Source: Streptomyces avermitilis MA-4680 = NBRC 14893 (GTDB taxonomy: Bacteria > Actinomycetota > Actinomycetes > Streptomycetales > Streptomycetaceae). From it: DNA of 64,000 nt. The stretch lies in NCBI RefSeq assembly GCF_000009765.2, contig NC_003155.5, positions 1,240,001 to 1,304,000 on the forward strand, written 5' to 3'. This document shows positions 1 to 10,234 of this stretch, piece by piece. The notes under the pieces were generated by a model. It saw only the letters and a program-made list of their open reading frames with translations, was not told the DNA's origin and did no database searches. Both the position numbers and the translations under genes were made by a program. Every line of letters begins with the position of its first letter. Positions within the stretch are counted from its first letter, which is position 1.

Positions 1-1
1 G

Positions 2-257
2 GCCGGGCAGCCCGTCACGGAGGCATATGTGATCGCCCACGGCCGGTTCACCCGCTACACCGCCGGCAAGTACGGCGAGGAGGAAACCATCGGGGTCGTC
101 ACCGACGGCGACCAGATGGGCGACGAGGCCATCGGCCAGTCGGACCCTCTGTGGCTGAGCTCGGTCCGGGCCGAGACGGCGGGCGTGGTGCTCGTGCTCC
201 CCTGGGACGTCGTCACGGAGTTCACCGAGCGGGTGCCGTCCCTCGCGGCGCACCTAG
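2..257 (+). pseudogene. Family 2B encapsulin shell protein, 5' fragment (cNMP-binding domain part), interrupted by transposons
   Basis: This is the cyclic-nucleotide-binding part of a family 2B encapsulin, the shell protein that in Streptomyces is encoded next to 2-methylisoborneol synthase and packages that terpene cyclase. The reading frame is open from the window edge (codons from base 2), so the N-terminus lies outside. Visible residues such as AHGRFTRYTAGKYGEEETIG and the following GDQMGDEAI match the beta-roll of these EshA-like proteins. The frame runs to CAC CTA at 251-256 and is then broken by mobile DNA at CTAG (254-257). The gene resumes exactly at the second CTAG (4891-4894): joining them gives an unbroken frame reading [16 protein letters not shown] and on into the shell domain. 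Gene identity is from family knowledge; the break is seen directly. Confidence 0.88.
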
Positions 258-273
258 TAGGGCTCCGTTAGGT
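258..273 (+). repeat. Left terminal inverted repeat of the IS701-family element
   Basis: TAGGGCTCCGTTAGGT, preceded by CTAG at 254-257. Confidence 0.93.
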
Positions 274-309
274 CTGTCTCGCGGTCCTGTTTGGGGGCAT
301 GTTGAAGGT

Positions 310-1584
310 GTGGATGCACATGAAGTGAACCGTGCTCGGGCGACGTTGGCATTATTCGTGGCTGACGTGTTCGCGTCGGTGCCGCGTAAGGACCAGCGGG
401 CGAAGGGCGACTGCTATCTGCGGGGGCTGATGCTGGACGGACGGCGTAAGTCGATCCAGCCGATGGCAGAGCGGCTGCCGGATGGCAACGAGCAGAACCT
501 GCAGCAGTTCGTGAACCAGTCGACCTGGGATCCGGTGCCGGTGCGGCGGCGGATCGCGGAGCGGATGGTGGCGCAGATCGGCCCGGATGCCTGGGCGGTC
601 GATGACGTGTCGTTCCCCAAGGACGGCAAGATGTCGGTCGCGGTCGCGCACCAGTACTGCGGGGCGCTGGGCAAGCAGGCCAACTGCCAGGTCGCGGTGA
701 GCGTGCACGCGGTCTCCGACACTGCCTCCTGCCCGCTGCAGTGGCGGTTGTTCGTGCCCCAGGAGTGGGCGCACGACGCGCCACGGCGGCAGAAGACCGG
801 GATACCGCCAGAGGTCGGGCACCGGGAGAAGTGGCGCCTGGCTCTGGACATCTTCGACGAGCTGGCCGGGTGGGGGCTGGTGCCGCCGGTGGTGGTGGCC
901 GACGCCGGCTACGGGCAGAACGCCGACTTCCGCGACGGCCTGGACGGCCGGGGCATCGGCTATGTCGCGGCCATCCGCTCGGATGTGACCGTCCATCCGC
1001 ACGATGCCGAGCCTTTCGCGCCGCCCTGGTCGGGCAACGGCCGCAAGCCCCAGCCCCGCTACCGCGACAAGCCGTCCTCGGTGGCGGCGCTGGCGACCGG
1101 CCACGGGCGGCAGGCCTTCACCGAGGTGACCTGGCGGGAAGGCTCCCGCGGACCGATGCGCTCGCATTTCCTGTCCCTGCGGGTGCGGCCGGCCGGGGTC
1201 AAATCCCGACGCCTCGCCCAGGCCGCCGCCACAGACGAAAACTGCTGGGACGGTGTCCTGCCCGAGGTCACACTGCTGGTCGAATGGCCCGAAGGCGCCG
1301 AGGCGCCCACCGACTACTGGCTGTCCAACCTGCCCGACACGCTCTCCCTCGCCGAACTGGTCCGCCTGGCGAAGATCCGCTGGCGCATCGAGCACGACTA
1401 CCGCGAACTCAAGCACGGCCTCGGCCTGGACCACTTCGAGGGCCGCTCCTGGACCGGCTGGCACCACCACGTCTCCCTGGTCACCGCCGCCCACGCGTTC
1501 CTCACCGAACAGCGTCTGGCCCCAAAAGCCGGTACAGCGGACTCACCCTCTACCAGACCCTCGACGCCATCCAGGACCTGCTGA
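310..1584 (+). CDS. IS701-family transposase (DDE type), C-terminus out of frame
   Basis: This is the transposase of the surrounding IS. The GTG at 310 gives a protein starting VDAHEVNRARATLALFVADV; GTG 325 is an alternative. Family hallmarks are AVDDVSFPKDGK, VVADAGYGQN and the RWRIEHDYRELKHGLGLDHFEGR block holding the catalytic Glu, so a DDE core is present. In this frame the protein ends with an unrelated tail after APKAG. The expected C-terminus (GLTLYQTLDAIQDLL, then a CTTC pair) continues in the -1 frame up to a TAA at 1671-1673 inside the right inverted repeat. One missing G near 1540 would restore the family reading AGTAGLTLYQ. A C CCA AAA heptamer at 1521-1527 is also a textbook -1 slippery site, but loss of one base explains the data more simply. 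Activity is uncertain. Confidence 0.88.
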   Translation: MDAHEVNRARATLALFVADVFASVPRKDQRAKGDCYLRGLMLDGRRKSIQPMAERLPDGNEQNLQQFVNQSTWDPVPVRRRIAERMVAQIGPDAWAVDDVSFPKDGKMSVAVAHQYCGALGKQANCQVAVSVHAVSDTASCPLQWRLFVPQEWAHDAPRRQKTGIPPEVGHREKWRLALDIFDELAGWGLVPPVVVADAGYGQNADFRDGLDGRGIGYVAAIRSDVTVHPHDAEPFAPPWSGNGRKPQPRYRDKPSSVAALATGHGRQAFTEVTWREGSRGPMRSHFLSLRVRPAGVKSRRLAQAAATDENCWDGVLPEVTLLVEWPEGAEAPTDYWLSNLPDTLSLAELVRLAKIRWRIEHDYRELKHGLGLDHFEGRSWTGWHHHVSLVTAAHAFLTEQRLAPKAGTADSPSTRPSTPSRTC

Positions 1585-1667
1585 ACTGCTGGAGCGGCAC
1601 CTGCACCACCTGCCACCGCCCCCTGCCCAAAACATCCACCACCAGCCACAACCCAAGAGCCAGAGCA

Positions 1668-1683
1668 ACCTAACGGAGCCCTA
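1668..1683 (-). repeat. Right terminal inverted repeat of the IS701-family element
   Basis: Exact complement of 258-273, followed by CTAG at 1684-1687. The transposase frame's expected stop (1671-1673) lies inside it. Confidence 0.93.
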
Positions 1684-2702
1684 CTAGGTGTATGAGGACA
1701 GGACGTTGGTGACGGTCATGGGCAGGCGGATTGCCGGTGGCTGGTTTCCAGCTGCCCCGTGTGGGCGGTGGTAGTTGTAGTGGATGTTCCAGACGCGGAG
1801 CGCATCTGAGCGTTCTTGCTCGCATTGCCAGCTCCGGGCGTAGAGGAATTCCTCGGCGAGGATGCGGTGGTACCGCTCCACTTTGCCGTTGTGGCGAGGT
1901 GTGTATGGGGTGATGCGTTGGTGCCGTGCTCCAAGCAGCGCGCGAGCGAAGGCATCGGCTCGGTAGCAGGCTCCGTTGTCGGTGACGATCCGCTCGATGG
2001 TGGTGATGCCATGCGCTGCGAACCAGACGCGAGCGCGGTGCATGAATGCAATGGCGGTGGTGGCCTTCTCGTTTGGCAGTGCCTCGGTGTAGGCCAGACG
2101 CGAAAAGCCGTCGATGGCGGAGTGCAGGTAGATGTAGCCGCGACGGCCGGTTCGGCGTTTCTGCCGTTCTGCAGATTTGGCCTGCGTGCTTCCGCGGCCG
2201 TGGACTCGCCAGCCTCCGCCATCGGGGATGCGGCCGGCTTTCTTGACGTCGATGTGCACCATGTGACCCGGGCGGTGGGCGATGATCTGCCGCGCTGTGC
2301 GGTTGGACTCCCCGTCCGGATCGATGAACCGACGGCGACTCAGCCCGAGCTGTTCCAGATGTCGCGTGATGGTCCGGCGACTGATCTGGATGCCCTGGGC
2401 CGAGAGTTCGAAGGTGATGCGTGCTGCGGACCACTTGTGTTCCCGGCGCAGCCGCTCGATTTGCTCCACTACCGCGCCGGCGTGGCTGTCGGTTGGTGGC
2501 GAGGCGCGGAGGACCGGTCGTGCAGGCCAAGTTCACCGTAGCGGCGGAACCGGTTTACCCATTTCGACGCGCACGCTCTTGAGATCCCCATCTCCGCGGC
2601 CACGTGGGCGATCGGGCGCGACTTACAGCGTTCGACGAGGCGGCGCCGGCCTTCAACAGACAGCGGGGCGTTGCGGTGAAGCGACGGTCTCTTCCCGGTC
2701 AT
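1684..2702 (-). pseudogene. IS481-family transposase, frameshifted
   Basis: The N-terminal half starts at ATG 2702 (MTGKRPSLHRNAPLSVEGRR). It overlaps the yczE stop as ATGA, so the two genes are translationally coupled. It contains a helix-turn-helix (HVAAEMGISRACASKWVNRF) and stops at TAG 2469-2471. The catalytic half continues in another frame from GTG 2469 (VEQIERLRREHKWSAARI) to 1684 and holds the integrase core: HIDVKKAGRIP, HSAIDGFSRL, VTDNGACYRAD and TPRHNGKVERYHR. Stop and restart overlap as TAGTG. One extra G there would give the continuous family reading TPARVVEQIERL. It is therefore either a one-base deletion or a coupled two-ORF arrangement. IS481 transposases are normally a single ORF, so I favour a frameshift; the element would then be immobile without help in trans. 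Confidence 0.83.
1688..1714 (+). repeat. Left terminal inverted repeat of the IS481-family transposon
   Basis: Begins GTGTATGAGG and contains GGACGTTGGTGACG. It matches the complement of 4864-4890 at 19 of 27 positions. Confidence 0.8.
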
Positions 2703-3340
2703 CGGGTGTGCCGTGTGGGTGCAGAGACAGCAGGAAGGTGAACCGCTACCAGCGGCAGGAAGCAGCCTACGAGGGGCCCCATGCACAGTGCGATAAGCAC
2801 AGTGCCGACCCCGACGGTTCCACCCAGAAGCCAGCCGACGCAGGCAACAGCGACTTCGATGCCGGTGCGCACAAGGGCGACGGGCAGGTGGGTGAGCCGA
2901 ACGAGTCCGGTCATGATGCCGTCGCGTGGTCCCGACCCAAACTGCGCGCCGAGGTAGAGCGCGTCAAAGAATGCCAGAGCGACAAGGCCGAGGGCGAGAT
3001 ATCCGATCTCGGCGAGTGGCCCCTGTGGGTTGGGGAGCACAGTCGCGGTGGCATCTGCGGCGAAGCCGACGATCGCGACGTTGAGGAGCGTGCCAAGCCC
3101 GGGCAGTTCTCGCAGGGGGATCCATGCAATAAGCACAAGCAGCGAGATCAGGTTTGTCGCCCAACCGAACGAGATATCGAGGGATTTGGCGGTGCCTTCT
3201 GTGAGCACGTTCCAGCTGGCTGCGCCAAGCCCGGACTGGACGAGCAGCATGACGGAGGCCCCGTATCCCATCAAGCCGAGCAGGAGCTGGGGGATCCGAC
3301 GTGCCTTTCCGGCCGCCCGGACCTGGGCGAATGCGTTCAT
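2699..3340 (-). CDS. yczE: YczE/YyaS/YitT-family membrane protein, transposon passenger
   Basis: This is a 213-residue integral membrane protein with about five hydrophobic segments. The family-like core includes LLLGLMGYGASVMLLVQSGL near the N-terminus, WIPLRELPGLGTLLNV, GSGPRDGIMTGL and GGTVGVGTVLIALCMGPL. YczE proteins are commonly encoded beside a MocR-type regulator (YczR), as here, where the regulator is divergent. The transport substrate is unknown. The chosen start is ATG 3340, just ahead of the first hydrophobic segment; ATG 3409 would add 23 residues. Neither has a convincing ribosome-binding site. The stop overlaps the start of the IS481 transposase (ATGA), so the passenger and transposase form one transcription unit, unusual for a simple IS. 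Confidence 0.75.
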   Translation of the reverse strand: MNAFAQVRAAGKARRIPQLLLGLMGYGASVMLLVQSGLGAASWNVLTEGTAKSLDISFGWATNLISLLVLIAWIPLRELPGLGTLLNVAIVGFAADATATVLPNPQGPLAEIGYLALGLVALAFFDALYLGAQFGSGPRDGIMTGLVRLTHLPVALVRTGIEVAVACVGWLLGGTVGVGTVLIALCMGPLVGCFLPLVAVHLPAVSAPTRHTR

Positions 3341-3424
3341 GTGCGGTAGTACGGGTGGGTCGTGACGAGCCGGGACGGAGGTGTGCGTCGTGGAAGCGGG
3401 AGGTGCCATATGGCGAGTCTCTTG

Positions 3425-3458
3425 GCCATCTGGTCCTGGATTCCATAGCCAGATTGGC
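3425..3458. promoter_or_regulatory. Candidate YczR binding site between divergent yczE and yczR
   Basis: GCCATCTGG (3425-3433) and CCAGATTGGC (3449-3458) form a near-perfect inverted repeat, one base longer in one arm, in the short gap between the two divergent genes. TAGGCT at 3456-3461, about 10 bases before the yczR GTG, could be a -10 box of a leaderless transcript. MocR regulators often control a divergent partner. Assignment rests on position and symmetry only. Confidence 0.4.
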
Positions 3459-3470
3459 TAGGCTGGTTCG

Positions 3471-4862
3471 GTGAAAATCAGCTCGCACGCGGTAGCGGGG
3501 ATGTTGGGGACCTGGCAGGAGGGGCCGGGGCCGGCGCATCAACGTCTCTCCGACAGGCTGCGTCTGCTCATCCTGGATGGACGCCTCTTTCTTGGTGCGG
3601 CCCTGCCGAGTGAGCGTGACCTGGCTGTCGCGCTCGGCACCAGCAGGACCACCGTCGGTACCGCGTTCCGCACGCTGGTCGAGCACGGATACCTCGCCAC
3701 ACAGGCGCGTACCAGGGCGACGGTACGACTGCCTGATGACACCACTCCCGAGCACTTGGTCGGCACGGACGCAGAGACCATCGACCTGTCTTTTGCCGCG
3801 CCGGCTGCGCCCGTAGAAATCCTCCACGCCGCGTTCGCGACGGCTCTCGAACAGCTGCCACGTCATTTCGAGCGGCACGGCTACGACCGATACGGCACCG
3901 CTGAGCTGCGCGAAGCAGTCGCCCGATGGTATCAGCGGAGAGGACTGCCCACCCGGCCCGATCACATCCTGATCACCAACGGCGCGCAGCACGCTCTAGC
4001 GCTTCTGACGCGCGTACTCCTGTCGCCACGCGACAAAGTCCTCATCGACCATCCGACCTACCCGCACGCGATCACGACGTTCACTCAAGCGCGCGCCCGT
4101 CTTCTACCCGTCGCCGTGACGTCTTCCGGCTGGGACACCGAGCAACTCCAAGCAGCAGGGCAAGCCGCGAATCTGGCCTACCTGATACCTGACTTTCACA
4201 ACCCGACCGGGATGTGCATGCCCACGAGCGTGCGCCAACAGCTCAGGCTCGCGTGTCCCACTGTCGTCGACGAGACGATGACCGATCTGGCTCTGGACGT
4301 TCCGAGCCCCGAACCCCTCGCGCTGCACATGCCGACGGCCATCAGCATCGGCTCCGTGTCCAAGAGCGTCTGGGGCGGCCTACGCACAGGCTGGATTCGC
4401 GCGCTGCCCTCTCTCCTGGAACGTGTCGAACAAGCCCGTCCCACCACAGACCTCGGCACCCCCGTCGTAGAACAGCTCGCCACAGCCGTCCTCCTGAACG
4501 AGCACCAGACCCAGCGGCCCGACACGCTCCAGCAACTCAGATCGCAACGTGACGCCCTGTGGCAAGCACTCACCGAACACCTACCGAACGTCCACGCCCC
4601 GCAGCCAGCTGGCGGCGTGACGCTATGGGCAGCCTTCCCCGGGCCCGTCAGCTCGCGGCTGGCAGCCATGGCGCCTGACCACGGAGTGACCATCGCGGCC
4701 GGCCCACGATTCGGGATCGGAGGCGCGTTCGAACGCAACATCCGACTGCCGTACACGCTCCCTTCGAGTCAACTAGCCCAGGCAATCCGCAGACTCGCGC
4801 AGGCAGCACAGGCACTCGCACAAGGCGCTACCGGTACTCACACCCTCGCGCCCATCGCATGA
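3471..4862 (+). CDS. yczR: MocR-family (GntR wHTH plus aminotransferase-fold) regulator, YczR-like, transposon passenger
   Basis: A 463-residue fusion of an N-terminal GntR-type winged helix ([23 protein letters not shown], about residues 45-70) to a class I aminotransferase-like domain. PLP-site features are present: [15 protein letters not shown], the Schiff-base Lys in [10 protein letters not shown] and the following RTGWIRA arginine. Length and order fit MocR regulators, which sense PLP or an amino-compound adduct. A YczE membrane protein lies divergently upstream, the classic YczR/YczE pairing. The GTG at 3471 has no clear Shine-Dalgarno and may be leaderless. The stop (4860-4862) abuts the right inverted repeat of the IS481-family transposon, so the gene is cargo. 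It appears intact. Confidence 0.85.
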
Positions 4863-4863
4863 G

Positions 4864-4890
4864 CGTCAACAACGTCATGACGCGCAACAC
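4864..4890 (-). repeat. Right terminal inverted repeat of the IS481-family transposon
   Basis: Complement begins GTGTTGCGCG and contains GACGTTGTTGACG. It is followed by CTAG at 4891-4894, the third copy of the target tetranucleotide. Confidence 0.8.
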
Positions 4891-5675
4891 CTAGATGCCT
4901 ATGCCGAGCGGCAGCGACGGCCCATGAACCGCAAGGGCGAGGCCGACGTCCCGGTGCAGGCCGGTCACGTGGGCGAGCCGTCCTTGAACGGCGGCTTCGT
5001 CGACTACGACCTCGCCCCGCGCGAATACGAGTTGTCCCTCACCCAGACCGTGCTGCGCGTACACACCCGGGTCGCGGATCTCTACAACGAGCCGATGAAC
5101 CAGACCGAGCAGCAACTCCGCCTGACCATCGAGGAGATCCGCGAGCGCCAGGAGTGGGAGCTCCTCAACAACCGCGAATTCGGGCTGCTGCACAACGCCG
5201 ACTACGGCCAGCGCATCAGCACGTTCACCGGCCCGCCCACTCCGGACGATCTCGACGAGCTGCTCTGCATGCGCCGCAAGACCCGGCTCTTCCTCGCCCA
5301 CCCGAAGGCCATCGCGGCCTTCTTCCGGCAGTGCAACCGGCGCGGCCTGGTGCCCGGCACCGCGAACATCGACGGGCACGAGCTGCCCGCCGGCGCGGCG
5401 TCCCGTTGCTCCCCTGCGGCAAGATCCCGGTCACCCCGCAGCACACCAGCAGCATCATCGCGCTGCGCACCGGGGAGGCCGACCAAGGCGTCATCGGCCT
5501 CTATCAGACCGGCATCCCGGAGGAGTACCAGCCCGGTCTGAACGTGCGGTTCATGGGCATCGACACCGCCGCGATCATCCGCTACCTCGTCACCGCCCAC
5601 TTCTCGCTGGCCATCCTCGTCCCGGACGCGGCGGGGATCCTGGAAAACGTACAGATCGGCCGGACCGCCGAATGA
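4891..5675 (+). pseudogene. Family 2B encapsulin shell protein, 3' fragment (shell domain), frameshifted
   Basis: This is the HK97-fold shell-domain half of the encapsulin begun at the left edge. The first in-frame codons after CTAG read [20 protein letters not shown]. Next come the family-typical [52 protein letters not shown] and [12 protein letters not shown]. Near 5391 the frame changes: GCC GGC GCG replaces the expected GCC TGG CGC, so one base (the T of a Trp codon) appears lost. The remainder, [20 protein letters not shown] to [12 protein letters not shown], is in the next frame and ends at TGA 5673-5675, 4 bp before the synthase ATG. In intact systems the cargo is 2-MIB synthase. This copy cannot make a shell as sequenced. 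Confidence 0.9.
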
Positions 5676-5679
5676 CGGG

Positions 5680-6412
5680 ATGGAGCACCGAATGAGCGCG
5701 TCACCGCTTCCCGGTACCTCGTTCGCGCCGCCGGGACCGCACGACATCGCCGGCACCGTGCGGGCCCGGCGTGGCGGGGCGATCCCCGGGCTCAGGTATC
5801 GGCCGGCGGTCCCCGCCGATCCCGCGAAGGTCGCGGAGACCGATCGCAGGCTGGAGGCATGGGCCCGCCGGCTCGACGTGTTCCCCGAGGCGTGGTTCGG
5901 GGATTTCGCGGGGTTCCAGTTCGGCCGGGCCGTGGTGCTCCAGCACCCGGGTGCCGCGGACGTGGAGCGCCTCACCGTCGCCGGCAAACTGCTGCTCGCC
6001 GAGAACATCGTCGACGACTGCTACTGCGAGGACCGGGGTGGTTCACCGCGCGGTCTCGGCGGCCGGCTGATCACGGCCCAGTCCGCGATCGACCCCTACC
6101 ACGGCACTCCCGAGGCGGAGGAGCAGTGGCGGCACGGCATGCAGGCCGACGGGCCGCTGCGCTCGTACCACTGGGCCGTCAAGGACTACGCCACCCTCGC
6201 CACGCCCAGCCAGACGGACCGCCTCGTCCACGACATCGCCCGGCTGCACCTGGGGTACCTCGCCGAGGCGGCCTGGGCGGAGACACGCCATGTGCCGCGG
6301 GTGTGGGAGTACCTGGTGATGCGGCAGTTCAACAACTTCCGTCCCTGTCTGTCCATCGTCGAGGTGGCATGCCACCAACACCCACCGCTACCACCTGCCG
6401 AACTACTGGTAA
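5680..6412 (+). pseudogene. 2-methylisoborneol synthase with a large internal deletion
   Basis: A class I terpene cyclase that converts 2-methyl-GPP to 2-methylisoborneol. The N-terminal part is recognisable, including the first metal motif DDCYCED within AENIVDDCYCEDRGGSPRGL and the block VWEYLVMRQFNNFRPCLSIV. Immediately after SIVE the sequence jumps, in a different frame, to WHATNTHRYHLPNYW and TAA (6365-6412), which is the extreme C-terminus of this family. From the family's usual length (about 440 residues), some 120-130 residues are missing, including the NSE (ND..S..KE) magnesium triad. The frame upstream of the junction otherwise runs on into the methyltransferase gene. Starts are ATG 5680 or ATG 5692. 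Loss of the second metal site makes the enzyme non-functional. Confidence 0.92.
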
Positions 6413-6454
6413 CCACTACTGACAGTACGTCAAATGCACTGCGAGGAGCCACTG

Positions 6455-7330
6455 TTGACCACCGCCCCCGACGCCGTCACGGCAGCACCGGTACCGACCC
6501 AGTCCACGTACCAGTCCCGCGTCGCGGACTACTGGAACGCCGAGGAGAACCCGGTCAACCTCGAACTCGGCAAGATCGACGATCTGTACCACCACCACTA
6601 CGGGGTCGGGGCCGTCGACTACTCCGTGCTCGACGAGCCCGACCCCTCGCGGCGCCACGAGAGGATCACCGCCGAGCTGCACCGACTGGAACACGCCCAG
6701 GCCGAACTGCTGGCCGGCCACCTCAGCCCCCTCTCCCCCGCCGACCGCGTCTTCGACGCCGGCTGCGGTCGCGGCGGCGGCAGCGTCGTGGCGCACCTGC
6801 GGTACGGCTGCCACGCCGACGGCGTCACGATCTCCGCCAAGCAGGCCGACTTCGCCAACGAACAGGCCCGCAAGCGGGACATCGGCGACAAGGTGCGCTA
6901 CCACCACCGCAACATGCTCGACACGGGCCTGCCGACCGGGGCGTTCGCGGCCTCGTGGAACAACGAATCCACCATGTACGTCGAGCTGGAGCTGCTGTTC
7001 GCCGAACATGCCAGGCTGCTGCGTCGCGGCGGACGCTGTGCGGTGATCATCGGGTGCTACAACGACACCTACGGGAGGGCCTCACGCGAAGTGTCCCTCA
7101 TCAACGCCCACTACATCTGCGACATCCATCCACGGTCGGCATACTTCCGGGCCATGGCCCGCAACCGGCTGGTCCCCGTGCACGTCGAGGATCTCACCGG
7201 AGCCGCGCTGTCCTACTGGGAGCTGCGCAAGCGGTCCGACCGGCTGGCCACCGGCATCGAGGACTCGTTCCGGACCGCGTACAAGAACGGCAGCTTCCAG
7301 TACCTGCTGATCGTGGCCGACCGCGTCTGA
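6455..7330 (+). CDS. Geranyl diphosphate 2-C-methyltransferase
   Basis: The SAM-dependent enzyme that methylates GPP at C2, the first committed step to 2-methylisoborneol. The SAM loop is DAGCGRGGGSVVAH. Other family blocks are YHHHYGVGAVD near the N-terminus, ASWNNESTMYVELELLF, INAHYICDIHPR, LSYWELRKRS and the C-terminal GSFQYLLIVADRV. About 291 residues matches the family. TTG 6455 is chosen because GAGGAG lies 7 bases upstream; an in-frame ATG at 6434 has no ribosome-binding site. It is the last gene of the encapsulin-synthase-methyltransferase operon and the only one still intact, so its product would have no cyclase to feed. Confidence 0.88.
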   Translation: MTTAPDAVTAAPVPTQSTYQSRVADYWNAEENPVNLELGKIDDLYHHHYGVGAVDYSVLDEPDPSRRHERITAELHRLEHAQAELLAGHLSPLSPADRVFDAGCGRGGGSVVAHLRYGCHADGVTISAKQADFANEQARKRDIGDKVRYHHRNMLDTGLPTGAFAASWNNESTMYVELELLFAEHARLLRRGGRCAVIIGCYNDTYGRASREVSLINAHYICDIHPRSAYFRAMARNRLVPVHVEDLTGAALSYWELRKRSDRLATGIEDSFRTAYKNGSFQYLLIVADRV

Positions 7331-7420
7331 GGCCACAGAACGCCGCCCCTGTCCCGCCGCCGCGGCACGACGGCGGACCAGGTGTACGTCCCCCGGGGGA
7401 GGGCCACTGTCCGACAGATG

Positions 7421-10234
7421 TCACGGAGTGGCCAACAGCGACTCCAAGGCCACCGCGGTATCCGGATGACGGCCGATCAGTTGCCCGCCCGCCGGGCCGG
7501 GATCGGCTGTCTGCCACGTACCGTCGCAGCCCAGCAGGCTCGCCACCGCGTCGCACGTCGCGGGGTGGGCGGCGAGCAGCGCGACGTTGCGGCCCTCGCC
7601 CGCGCGCCCGCCCGGGCGCGCGGTGTCGGGCAACGGCTGGGCCCGCCACGGCGGCACCCACGCGTCCAGCTCCCCCAGCCGGCCGGGGAAGATCCGCCCG
7701 GCTTCACGGATCAGGAGCGGGGCGAGCTCCGCGCCGTTGGAGCGCAGGGTGCTGATGAGGGTGGGCAGCCACGGCAGCAGCACCGGGTCCGGCAGGCGTC
7801 CGAACGCGTTCGACACTGCCTCCACGACGAGGTCGGCCAGCCCCGGCACCGGTTCCAGCGCGTGCACGAATCCGCTGAGGTAACGCGGATAGGCAGGCAC
7901 CACCATGGGGTTGTCCAGCAGTTCGTCGCAGCGTGTGCGAAGGTCCGCGCGGGAGAGATGTCCGAGCTGTACCTGAGCCGCCCACAGCAGCGCCACCTTC
8001 GACGGCTCCTGCGGATGCGACTGCGCGACGGACAGCTCCAGCTGGGTTCGGTCGCAGCCCAGCGACAGCGCCAGGCTCTCCATGCCGAACAGGAATCCCA
8101 GCATCGCCGCGACCTGGCGGACGGTGGCGTCGTCGTCGGTGAACGCCGTCGGCAGCAGGGTGCAGTAGTGCGCGTATCCGGTCTTGACGAAGGACTCGAT
8201 CCACGGTGGCAGCACCGGCTCGCTGGTGCGGTAGTACGCCAGCAGCCGCCGCACCCGGCGCAGCACCTCCGGTGCGCCGTCGACGCTGCGTTCGGCCGAC
8301 AGCACCTCGAGGGCGCGGGTGCCCAGCTCGTCGGTGAGGCGGCGGCTGCGCAGGTGCAGCGTCGCGTCCTCGATGGCCTCCAGGACGGTCGCCGTGGTGG
8401 CGTGCGGCCCGTACGCCGTGCGGCGCAGGCGCTGCTCCAGGACCTGCTCGATGCTGACACCCTCGTAGCCGAGCTCGATGAGCGCGCGCTGGTGGGTGCC
8501 CAGCGCCAGGTCCCACGACTCCTGGATCGGCCGCTCGCCGAGCCGCCGCTCACCCATGATGGGCCGGGCCGTGCCCTGCGGCATCAGGTACCGCAGCATC
8601 CACAGCACGTCGGAGCACTGCTCCAGTTGCGGCTGGGAGGATATGTCCAGCAACGCCCGCTGGACGCCGCGCTGCTGCAACTTCAGGTTCAGCGGCGCGA
8701 GCCGGTCGTGCACGTCGCGGGCCAGTGGTGGCAGCGCGTCGTAACCGACCTGGCCGATCCGGTCGCCGCCCATCATGATGTCGACGAGGCGGCGCACATC
8801 GCGCCGGCCCGGCACGGTGTCCTTCTCGATGCAGGTGACCGCCGCGTCCTGGAAGTCGTACGGCGTGGGTCTGGCCCGATCGCGCATCCCGGCCAGCAGG
8901 ATGGACGTCTCGAACACCGCGATGGCGTCAGCGGTGGAGGCGAGATAGCCGTTGCGGCGCGCGGCGCGCACGATCTCCACCGACCAGCCGAGCAGTTCGG
9001 TCTCGTCGAGCCGGTCCAGGACGGGCGGTCGCCGCAGGAAGCCGGTCAGCTTGTCCGAGTTCGCGGCCGCCGGCACGGGGGCGGCCGCGACCGCGGTCTT
9101 CTTGGCCTTCGACGTCTTCGCGCCCGCCTGTCCCGCCAGGCGGAAGGGCTCCACGCGCGTGCGCCTGACGTTCTTCGCCCACACCGTCGCGGCGATCGAC
9201 ACCGAGCCGGAGGCGAGGCCGAACTGCGTCTCGATCGCCGCGTGGCTGGACGGAATGAGGCCGTGCTGCCACCTGGTGGCACTGCGCGGACCGATCTCGA
9301 AGGTGTCGGTGCCGTGGACGCCGAACTCCGCGACGCGACTGGCCGCGTGGAAGGCACCGCAGACGTAAAGGCAGTCCGCGGCATCGGTGCCGGTCGCGGC
9401 CAGGTGTTCGCGCATCCTGGTCCACATGTAGCGTTCGCGGTCCTCGTCCACGCGCACCCGGTGGGGGTCGCCGGGGGCAAGGCGTCTGAAGAGGCTGCCG
9501 ATCAGGAGCATGACCTGGCGATAGGTGTCGTGATCGCTGTCGCCGAGGGGCAGTTCGACGTACTGGTGCCACCACTCCGACCAGTGCCGCACCCTGCCGT
9601 GGTGCAGCAGGTGTTCCTCCAGTTCGGCGAAGCGCGGCCGCAGGTCGCCGATCTCCACGCCGACCGCGTCGCCGTGCAGTGCGGCCTCCTCCTCGACGGG
9701 CGGTGCGTCCGACGCCCCTGGATCGGCGCCGGCCTCGGCGGAGTGCGTCCCGCGCGAGTCCCACTGGAAGACATGGTCCGAGGAACGGTCGACGAGGACC
9801 AGTTCGACGCCCGGCGTGTCCAGTGCGTAGGCGATTGCCTGGTACTCGGCCGAGGCCTCGGTGATCGGTGCGACCACCGACAGCGGGGACCAGTCGGCCG
9901 GGAAGCCGTCGACCTCGGTCGCGAACGCCTGCACCGCCACCGGCAGTCGGCAGTTGCGCAGTTCGGTCAGCAGGGGCGCCATGTCCTCGCACAACTCCAG
10001 GTACACGACCTTCGGCCGCTTCTCCCGCAGGCGGCGTGCCATCGCGAGCGCCGAGGCGGGCGAGTGGTGGCAGACGGGGAAGATCTCCAGTGGCTCGCGC
10101 ACCGCGCGGTCGACGTCGTCGACGATGCCGAGGAGGATGCCCTCCAGGGCGTCGGGCCCGTCGGAGAACGTCGCGGCGGCCTCCTGCAACTGTCCGCGCA
10201 GCTCTTCGAAGGTCTGCCCGTGCGTGCCGCTCAT
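7421..10234 (-). CDS. DUF5682 family protein
   Basis: A 937-residue soluble protein and the last gene of a five-gene operon. The N-terminal 300 residues show a pattern resembling TraB/TIKI-type metal-dependent folds: VCHHSPASALAMARRL (His 56-57), VVYLELCEDM (Glu 80, 83) and CLYVCGAFHAASRV (His 296). A low-complexity patch near residues 330-350 (AAVAAAPVPAAANS) separates this from a roughly 550-residue helical C-terminal region. The ATG at 10234 overlaps the upstream AAA ATPase stop (ATGA). DUF5682 genes are recurrently found beside MoxR-type ATPases and vWA proteins. Substrate and role are unknown; the fold comparison is my inference from motifs. Confidence 0.75.
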   Translation of the reverse strand: MSGTHGQTFEELRGQLQEAAATFSDGPDALEGILLGIVDDVDRAVREPLEIFPVCHHSPASALAMARRLREKRPKVVYLELCEDMAPLLTELRNCRLPVAVQAFATEVDGFPADWSPLSVVAPITEASAEYQAIAYALDTPGVELVLVDRSSDHVFQWDSRGTHSAEAGADPGASDAPPVEEEAALHGDAVGVEIGDLRPRFAELEEHLLHHGRVRHWSEWWHQYVELPLGDSDHDTYRQVMLLIGSLFRRLAPGDPHRVRVDEDRERYMWTRMREHLAATGTDAADCLYVCGAFHAASRVAEFGVHGTDTFEIGPRSATRWQHGLIPSSHAAIETQFGLASGSVSIAATVWAKNVRRTRVEPFRLAGQAGAKTSKAKKTAVAAAPVPAAANSDKLTGFLRRPPVLDRLDETELLGWSVEIVRAARRNGYLASTADAIAVFETSILLAGMRDRARPTPYDFQDAAVTCIEKDTVPGRRDVRRLVDIMMGGDRIGQVGYDALPPLARDVHDRLAPLNLKLQQRGVQRALLDISSQPQLEQCSDVLWMLRYLMPQGTARPIMGERRLGERPIQESWDLALGTHQRALIELGYEGVSIEQVLEQRLRRTAYGPHATTATVLEAIEDATLHLRSRRLTDELGTRALEVLSAERSVDGAPEVLRRVRRLLAYYRTSEPVLPPWIESFVKTGYAHYCTLLPTAFTDDDATVRQVAAMLGFLFGMESLALSLGCDRTQLELSVAQSHPQEPSKVALLWAAQVQLGHLSRADLRTRCDELLDNPMVVPAYPRYLSGFVHALEPVPGLADLVVEAVSNAFGRLPDPVLLPWLPTLISTLRSNGAELAPLLIREAGRIFPGRLGELDAWVPPWRAQPLPDTARPGGRAGEGRNVALLAAHPATCDAVASLLGCDGTWQTADPGPAGGQLIGRHPDTAVALESLLATP

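Follow-up and report, generated by a model that had tools for sequence, protein, structure and literature searches.

The window analysed in this work is a stretch of 64 000 nucleotides from Streptomyces avermitilis MA-4680 (C1:1240001–1304000), whose genome of 9.12 Mb was assembled into two contigs (one of 9.03 Mb) and is given as 100 % complete. The first 7330 bases of the window hold an operon of three genes: a family 2B encapsulin gene, present in pieces, a terpene cyclase gene resembling 2-methylisoborneol (2-MIB) synthase (2-MIBS), of which a fragment is left, and a full geranyl diphosphate (GPP) 2-C-methyltransferase gene, in that order. Five lesions were found at this operon, namely a 5′ truncation, the insertion of an IS701 element, the insertion of an IS481-type composite, a one-base deletion in the encapsulin gene and a deletion in the cyclase gene (Table 1). 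A first-pass annotation, made from the letters of the window, had described inactivation by three independent lesions; inactivation by several lesions stands, and the count becomes five, including the two transposons and a 5′ truncation that lies outside the window. Family 2B encapsulin operons with a 2-MIBS-like cyclase and a C-methyltransferase are described in an earlier paper (PMC8346489). Compared with the operons described there, the present one has the same content (an encapsulin with a cyclic nucleotide monophosphate (cNMP)-binding domain, a cyclase and a methyltransferase), but it lacks its 5′ end and has a broken encapsulin and a broken cyclase. No publication title naming this locus was found in the literature searched on 2-MIB synthases, family 2B encapsulins, GPP methyltransferases and IS481 passengers.

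The encapsulin gene lies in three pieces, none of which scored over the cut-off of model NF041163, and both the HK97 shell domain and the cNMP-binding domain are present among them. Two transposons split the gene, as the first-pass annotation had it, and CTAG stands on every side of them. When the pieces at 2–257 and 4891–5675 were aligned they proved to be collinear and to meet at CTAG; the first half ends VPSLAAHL, and comparison with relatives places the join between the codons for HL and D with no loss. The related locus L050 reads ERVPSLAAHLEAYAERQRLPMNR across the same point. Compared with relatives, the gene has lost a single base in the interval 5391–5397, which shifts the frame (judged from tblastn frames) and agrees with the deletion near 5391 noted before. 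By sequence, the gene reads as a pseudogene of family 2B (NF041163).

The N-terminal-side fragment reaches some 110 bases beyond the upstream edge of the window, where it is truncated at about codon 101 of the encapsulin reference, an intact gene of Streptomyces fumigatiscleroticus (locus L049) whose start was picked by eye: in tblastn, positions 7892–8257 of locus L015 (window coordinate plus 8001) matched reference residues 101–222. The first 100 or so codons are thus gone, and before window base 1 the remainder abuts a divergent Ser/Thr kinase gene, the likely start of which is about 60 bases from the encapsulin remnant. DNA searches with the kinase junction, the composite and the downstream flank covered 246 genomes of the genus. 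Among the matches listed, no alignment to the kinase part of the junction query went beyond position 1876 and none to the encapsulin part began before position 1889, placing the 5′ break within about 20 bases, and kinase and encapsulin stood in one stretch in no genome but this one. The promoter was presumably lost with the 5′ end of the operon. Judged by eye, order and orientation are the same in G193, where 279 kb of a single contig separate the kinase and the encapsulin matches, and likewise in G128, where the kinase and cyclase are 42 kb apart; the order is reversed in G222, G235 and G140, the two lie on opposite arms in G067 and G207, and they are on different contigs in G011, G182 and G183. 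A single deletion could have made the join, a guess that rests on kinases of uncertain orthology.

In the cyclase gene, four bases replace the 110–111 codons that separate PCLSIV from WHATNT in the four relatives measured, and the frame is changed. The first-pass annotation was right about an internal loss that included the NSE motif and about a frame change at around 6361, and it overstated the loss at 120–130 residues. The lost segment contains NDLYSFTKE, and DDCYCED is kept; these are the NSE metal motif and the aspartate-rich motif, respectively. With the score under the cut-off of NF041167, the NSE segment deleted and the aspartate-rich motif present, the gene is a pseudogene of the 2-MIBS-like family 2 encapsulin cargo family. 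The frame entered at 5680 stays open to 7755 and so passes through the methyltransferase gene in a different frame. The short proline-rich N-terminus was also considered as a lesion and was rejected, as the length of the upstream part varies in relatives.

Table 1. Features of the broken operon, in window coordinates. Cut-offs (bits) were 400 for NF041163, NF041167 and NF041943, 150 for NF033540, 224 for NF033577, 205 for NF052291 and 487.4 for NF052290
Feature	Position	Strand	Evidence
Family 2B encapsulin, N-terminal-side fragment, part of cNMP-binding domain	1..257	+	NF041163, 65 bits, positions 109–194 (window 2–271)
IS701-family insertion sequence, 1426 bp	258..1683	+	NF033540, 426.6 bits; CTAG at 254–257 and 1684–1687
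IS481-type composite with terminal inverted repeats, about 3.2 kb, carrying yczE and yczR	1688..4890		Arms 1684–1720 and 4858–4894; CTAG at 1684–1687 and 4891–4894
IS481-family transposase, two frames	1684..2786	-	NF033577 on both open reading frames (ORFs); 227.3 bits on the larger ORF
yczE membrane-protein gene, passenger	2699..3409	-	NF052291, 221.2 bits
yczR MocR-like regulator gene, passenger	3471..4862	+	NF052290, 531.5 bits
Family 2B encapsulin, middle fragment, HK97 fold	4891..5391	+	NF041163, 290.3 bits, positions 194–359; continues collinearly from the piece that ends at 257
Family 2B encapsulin, C-terminal fragment	5397..5675	+	NF041163, 145.1 bits, positions 364–450 (match from 5403); frame differs from that of the middle fragment
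2-MIBS-like terpene cyclase, part before deletion	5680..6363	+	NF041167, 248 bits, positions 40–246 of 366
Cyclase deletion junction, 110–111 codons replaced by 4 bases	6361..6364	+	Comparison with relatives
Cyclase, last 15 codons and stop, other frame	6365..6412	+	Read from sequence
GPP 2-C-methyltransferase, frame intact	6434..7330 (or TTG at 6455 behind GAGGAG)	+	NF041943, about 441.6 bits, positions 1–272 of 272

For comparison, 166 relatives of the cyclase fragment were confirmed in named genomes, and the loci of the best 80 were each taken with flanks of 8 kb on either side; the gene order of the operon is the same as theirs. The whole C-terminal part of the cyclase was present in all 80, a single-frame methyltransferase in 79 and a nearly full-length encapsulin in 73; two of the seven loci that lacked the last (L065 and L092) are near a contig end. 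This strain's pattern of breakage occurred in none of the 80. An even draw of genomes, 199 in number, served to survey the genus further. A cyclase match was present in 104 of these and passed the cut-off in 101. The three below it include this genome, which has the only truncated match (39–248 of 366); the other two matches (22–365 and 42–365) come without a methyltransferase match. The methyltransferase was over its cut-off in 102 of the 199 genomes, and a cyclase match was present in every one of the 102, this strain's truncated one included. In the downstream flank, a DUF5682 gene was found in 59 of the 246 genomes searched at the DNA level and is uninformative on the lesions.

Unlike the two genes before it, the methyltransferase gene is intact, as had been noted: its frame is full and it matches NF041943 over its full length and over the cut-off. 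Its score is the lowest of 113 over-cut-off matches in the 199 genomes (441.5 bits, the next being 451.1). Seven of 178 conserved columns (those at least 97 % conserved in 79 relatives) are broken in it, by the substitutions G98S, Y202C, T206I, P260S, A268S, H270R and V272A (numbered from 6434); the relatives have four at most (mean 0.8), and none of the 79 reaches seven. Columns of this kind are also broken in the four dead pieces, namely 3 of 41, 1 of 96, 2 of 54 and 1 of 106, in sum 7 of 297, and this does not differ from the 7 of 178 in the methyltransferase (Fisher P=0.40).

The ratio of non-synonymous to synonymous substitution rates (dN/dS, omega) was estimated with our own codon-model script, which gives the strain's terminal branch its own omega on FastTree trees. 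The estimates for this branch, with the background value in parentheses, were as follows: cyclase, 0.070 (0.077); encapsulin, 0.043 (0.047) in the HK97 part and 0.060 (0.079) in the N part; methyltransferase, 0.060 (0.050). In all four pieces omega=1 was rejected (likelihood-ratio statistic 22–53), and none differed from the background. When each relative's branch was treated in the same way as a control, the methyltransferase omega was as high or higher in 22 of the 79 relatives. The neutral share of the strain's branch had an upper bound of 3.6–7.9 % in the dead pieces (profile intervals). As the dN/dS of the dead genes equals that of their relatives, the lesions are young, and the intact frame of the methyltransferase therefore does not point to selection; any gene that the lesions happened to miss would be expected to have one. 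This speaks against the methyltransferase being kept and falls short of proof that it is not. By simple arithmetic on the three gene lengths (about 1.45, 1.05 and 0.87 kb), the methyltransferase would escape five randomly placed hits in about one case in four to five, so that its having been ‘spared’ needs no cause.

The most probable explanation, to which we give a probability of roughly 0.88, is that this is a recent pseudogene operon, in which an encapsulin/2-MIBS-like cyclase/GPP-methyltransferase set that was functional until recently has lost its function in this strain. What the set produced was probably a terpene with an earthy smell, formed within the protein shell. As we infer the course of events, a deletion or rearrangement that joined the operon to the kinase gene would have removed its 5′ end, i.e. 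the first 100 or so encapsulin codons and presumably the promoter. The IS481-type composite and the IS701 element both went into one CTAG site of the encapsulin gene, and the cyclase gene lost about 329 bp including the NSE metal motif. Neither shell nor cyclase could then be made, and the full methyltransferase frame would reflect the short time elapsed rather than demonstrated retention. The youth of the locus is further supported by the IS701 element, which is one of three copies in the genome that are 100 % identical.

Several points weigh against this explanation. The relatives compared belong to other species and none to the same species, and the omega values were obtained with background parameters and all other branch lengths held fixed. 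The one-base deletion in the encapsulin gene could be a sequencing error. Two of the 113 over-cut-off methyltransferases (in G006 and G098) have no cyclase within 3 kb. The methyltransferase shares its excess of broken columns with the dead genes, no difference being shown, and a relaxation of its own is thus unsupported; with full length and a low omega, the enzyme may still be active.

The first-pass annotation had gone further in this direction and read the methyltransferase as spared and the S-adenosylmethionine-dependent step as persisting. Selection might indeed have kept the gene, which would be read from a yczR transcript or another promoter and would provide 2-methyl-GPP for other terpene synthases or for a farnesyl diphosphate (FPP) synthase (giving 6-methyl-FPP compounds). 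The full-length frame over the cut-off and the rejection of omega=1 at 0.060 fit such a role; yczR runs in the same direction and ends at 4862 with no terminator-like site found in 4700–7480, and the genome has other terpene synthase-like genes. Omega is equally low in the dead genes, however, so the constraint need not be current, and the methyltransferase combines the lowest score with seven broken columns. The upstream end of the operon is missing, the truncated cyclase frame overruns the methyltransferase gene in another frame, and in the 102 genomes of the survey the methyltransferase never came without a cyclase match. The search of 4700–7480 found no promoter-like site either, which says little for Streptomyces. 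Retention by selection therefore appears very unlikely, and the reading of the gene as spared is not supported. It is highly improbable that the orphan enzyme, expressed from transposon transcription, feeds 2-methyl-GPP to other enzymes, so that the pathway would have been rewired rather than ended.

Joint loss was also considered, on the idea that a cyclase with no shell, or a shell with no cargo, does harm and that the pair decays as a unit. Both genes are broken in this strain, and the statement that shell and cargo were lost together holds to that extent; one strain is one event, and as a rule it fails. Five of the 80 named loci (L072, L076, L089, L107 and L109) have kept a single-frame cyclase and the methyltransferase while the 8 kb on either side contain no match to the encapsulin, though at least one family 2B encapsulin over the cut-off is present elsewhere in all five genomes and might serve. 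In L107 and G146:C25 the cyclase is unbroken and it is the adjacent methyltransferase that falls into two frames, and in G175:C38 a cyclase with a stop codon has no over-cut-off methyltransferase within 3 kb; these split frames and the stop may include sequencing errors. In all, 7 of 118 cyclase matches lacked an over-cut-off methyltransferase within 3 kb. Given the single losses in L107, G146:C25 and G175:C38 and the shell-less loci, decay of the operon has no fixed order in this sample, and decay as a unit is very unlikely. An assembly or sequencing artefact, with the operon intact in the strain, would account for two one-base deletions within 3 kb (that at 5391–5397 and one in the composite's transposase) as indel errors, and three identical IS701 copies can mislead assembly. 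That all the lesions are errors was rejected because the large ones are impossible as base-calling errors; moreover, the operon lies in a single 9.03-Mb contig of a genome given as 100 % complete, the two parts of the encapsulin line up at CTAG without a gap, and the ends of the composite match an independent copy in G090. We regard an artefact as most improbable, and a recent pseudogene operon as the better account of the locus.

A second encapsulin locus was found in the strain. The first-pass annotation had held that a complete encapsulin–synthase pair elsewhere would make the losses irrelevant, and such a pair was found only in part: an intact family 2B encapsulin is present at C1:3762072–3763421 (781 bits), with a polyprenyl transferase as its neighbour, and a profile search of the whole genome found no 2-MIBS-like cyclase over the cut-off. 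The adjoining polyprenyl-transferase gene passes the cargo model NF041169 (496.3 bits, cut-off 450), and there is a gene for pentalenene synthase (715.7 bits, cut-off 675) at a distance of about 5 kb from the polyprenyl transferase and about 6 kb from the encapsulin. This locus thus resembles the broken operon in having a family 2B shell, but is intact and has other cargo at another site. The surrounding region (C1:3750000–3768000) appears to hold a pentalenolactone-like cluster near the second encapsulin, its other neighbours being judged by eye from translations, and includes a second polyprenyl synthase that scored 420.1 bits, under the NF041169 cut-off.

The solved chain nearest to the cyclase fragment is PDB 4ZQ8 (397.8 bits), which is named only ‘Isoprenoid Synthase’; no publication naming it was found in the literature searched. 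The fragment is also homologous to 2-methylisoborneol synthase (PDB 3V1V and 3V1X, the Streptomyces coelicolor enzyme), with about 238–238.5 bits over 211 residues, but its higher score is against 4ZQ8. It is 71–87 % identical to the cyclases of the 80 named loci and 33–55 % identical to those of six of 30 other-clade loci. A published tree of Streptomyces 2-MIB synthases comprises three clades (PMC6604706). As its own clade lies nearest 4ZQ8, 2-MIB is named as the product of the clade only presumptively, by homology to another clade.

The methyltransferase matches the solved GPP 2-C-methyltransferases PDB 3VC1 and 4F84 over nearly its full length (337.3 and 343.6 bits). In contrast to these, it has seven substitutions at columns that are invariant in the 79 relatives. 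Residue 227 is Y here and in more than 90 % of the 79 relatives, compared with F in both solved enzymes (INAHY versus INAHF); this column is that of active-site F222 of the S. coelicolor enzyme. Given Y for F at this position, the clade may differ in substrate. Elsewhere in the survey, the full-length methyltransferases at G006:C2:43590–44408 and G098:C1:7546548–7547363 are possible stand-alone genes.

Both transposons inside the encapsulin gene could be assigned to known types. The IS701-family element has a transposase over the cut-off, terminal inverted repeats and CTAG on both sides; two further copies, at C1:376835 and C1:337863, are identical to it over all 1426 bp, and CTAG flanks both sides of all three. 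The target rule of this family is a 4-bp YTAR duplication, which CTAG fits. The IS481-type composite has a transposase and terminal repeats that enclose passenger genes, and the same unit occurs at another site: G090 (C1:720431–723633) carries a copy that is 96 % identical from end to end and lies beside CTAA, and G151 has a nearly full copy (92 %, query 229–3202 of 3203). Compared with the single-frame transposase of the G090 copy, that of the composite is split by a one-base deletion (window 2460–2540); the composite may be stuck, or the deletion may be a sequencing error. The yczR–yczE pair seems to be mobile, as passengers of an IS481-type composite, and this mobile unit may be of separate use.

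The locus looks like a case of ordinary, recent gene decay, a plain pseudogene operon. If the pathway were nevertheless rewired, examples would be an FPP synthase that makes 6-methyl-FPP, or the locus with the second encapsulin, the polyprenyl transferase and pentalenene synthase. The strain is a natural one that is predicted to be without the terpene of this clade, and would be a useful null for headspace work. Above all, the operon is a warning: where pseudogenes are young, one frame that survives among broken neighbours must not be taken for retention, since the dN/dS of those neighbours is still no different.

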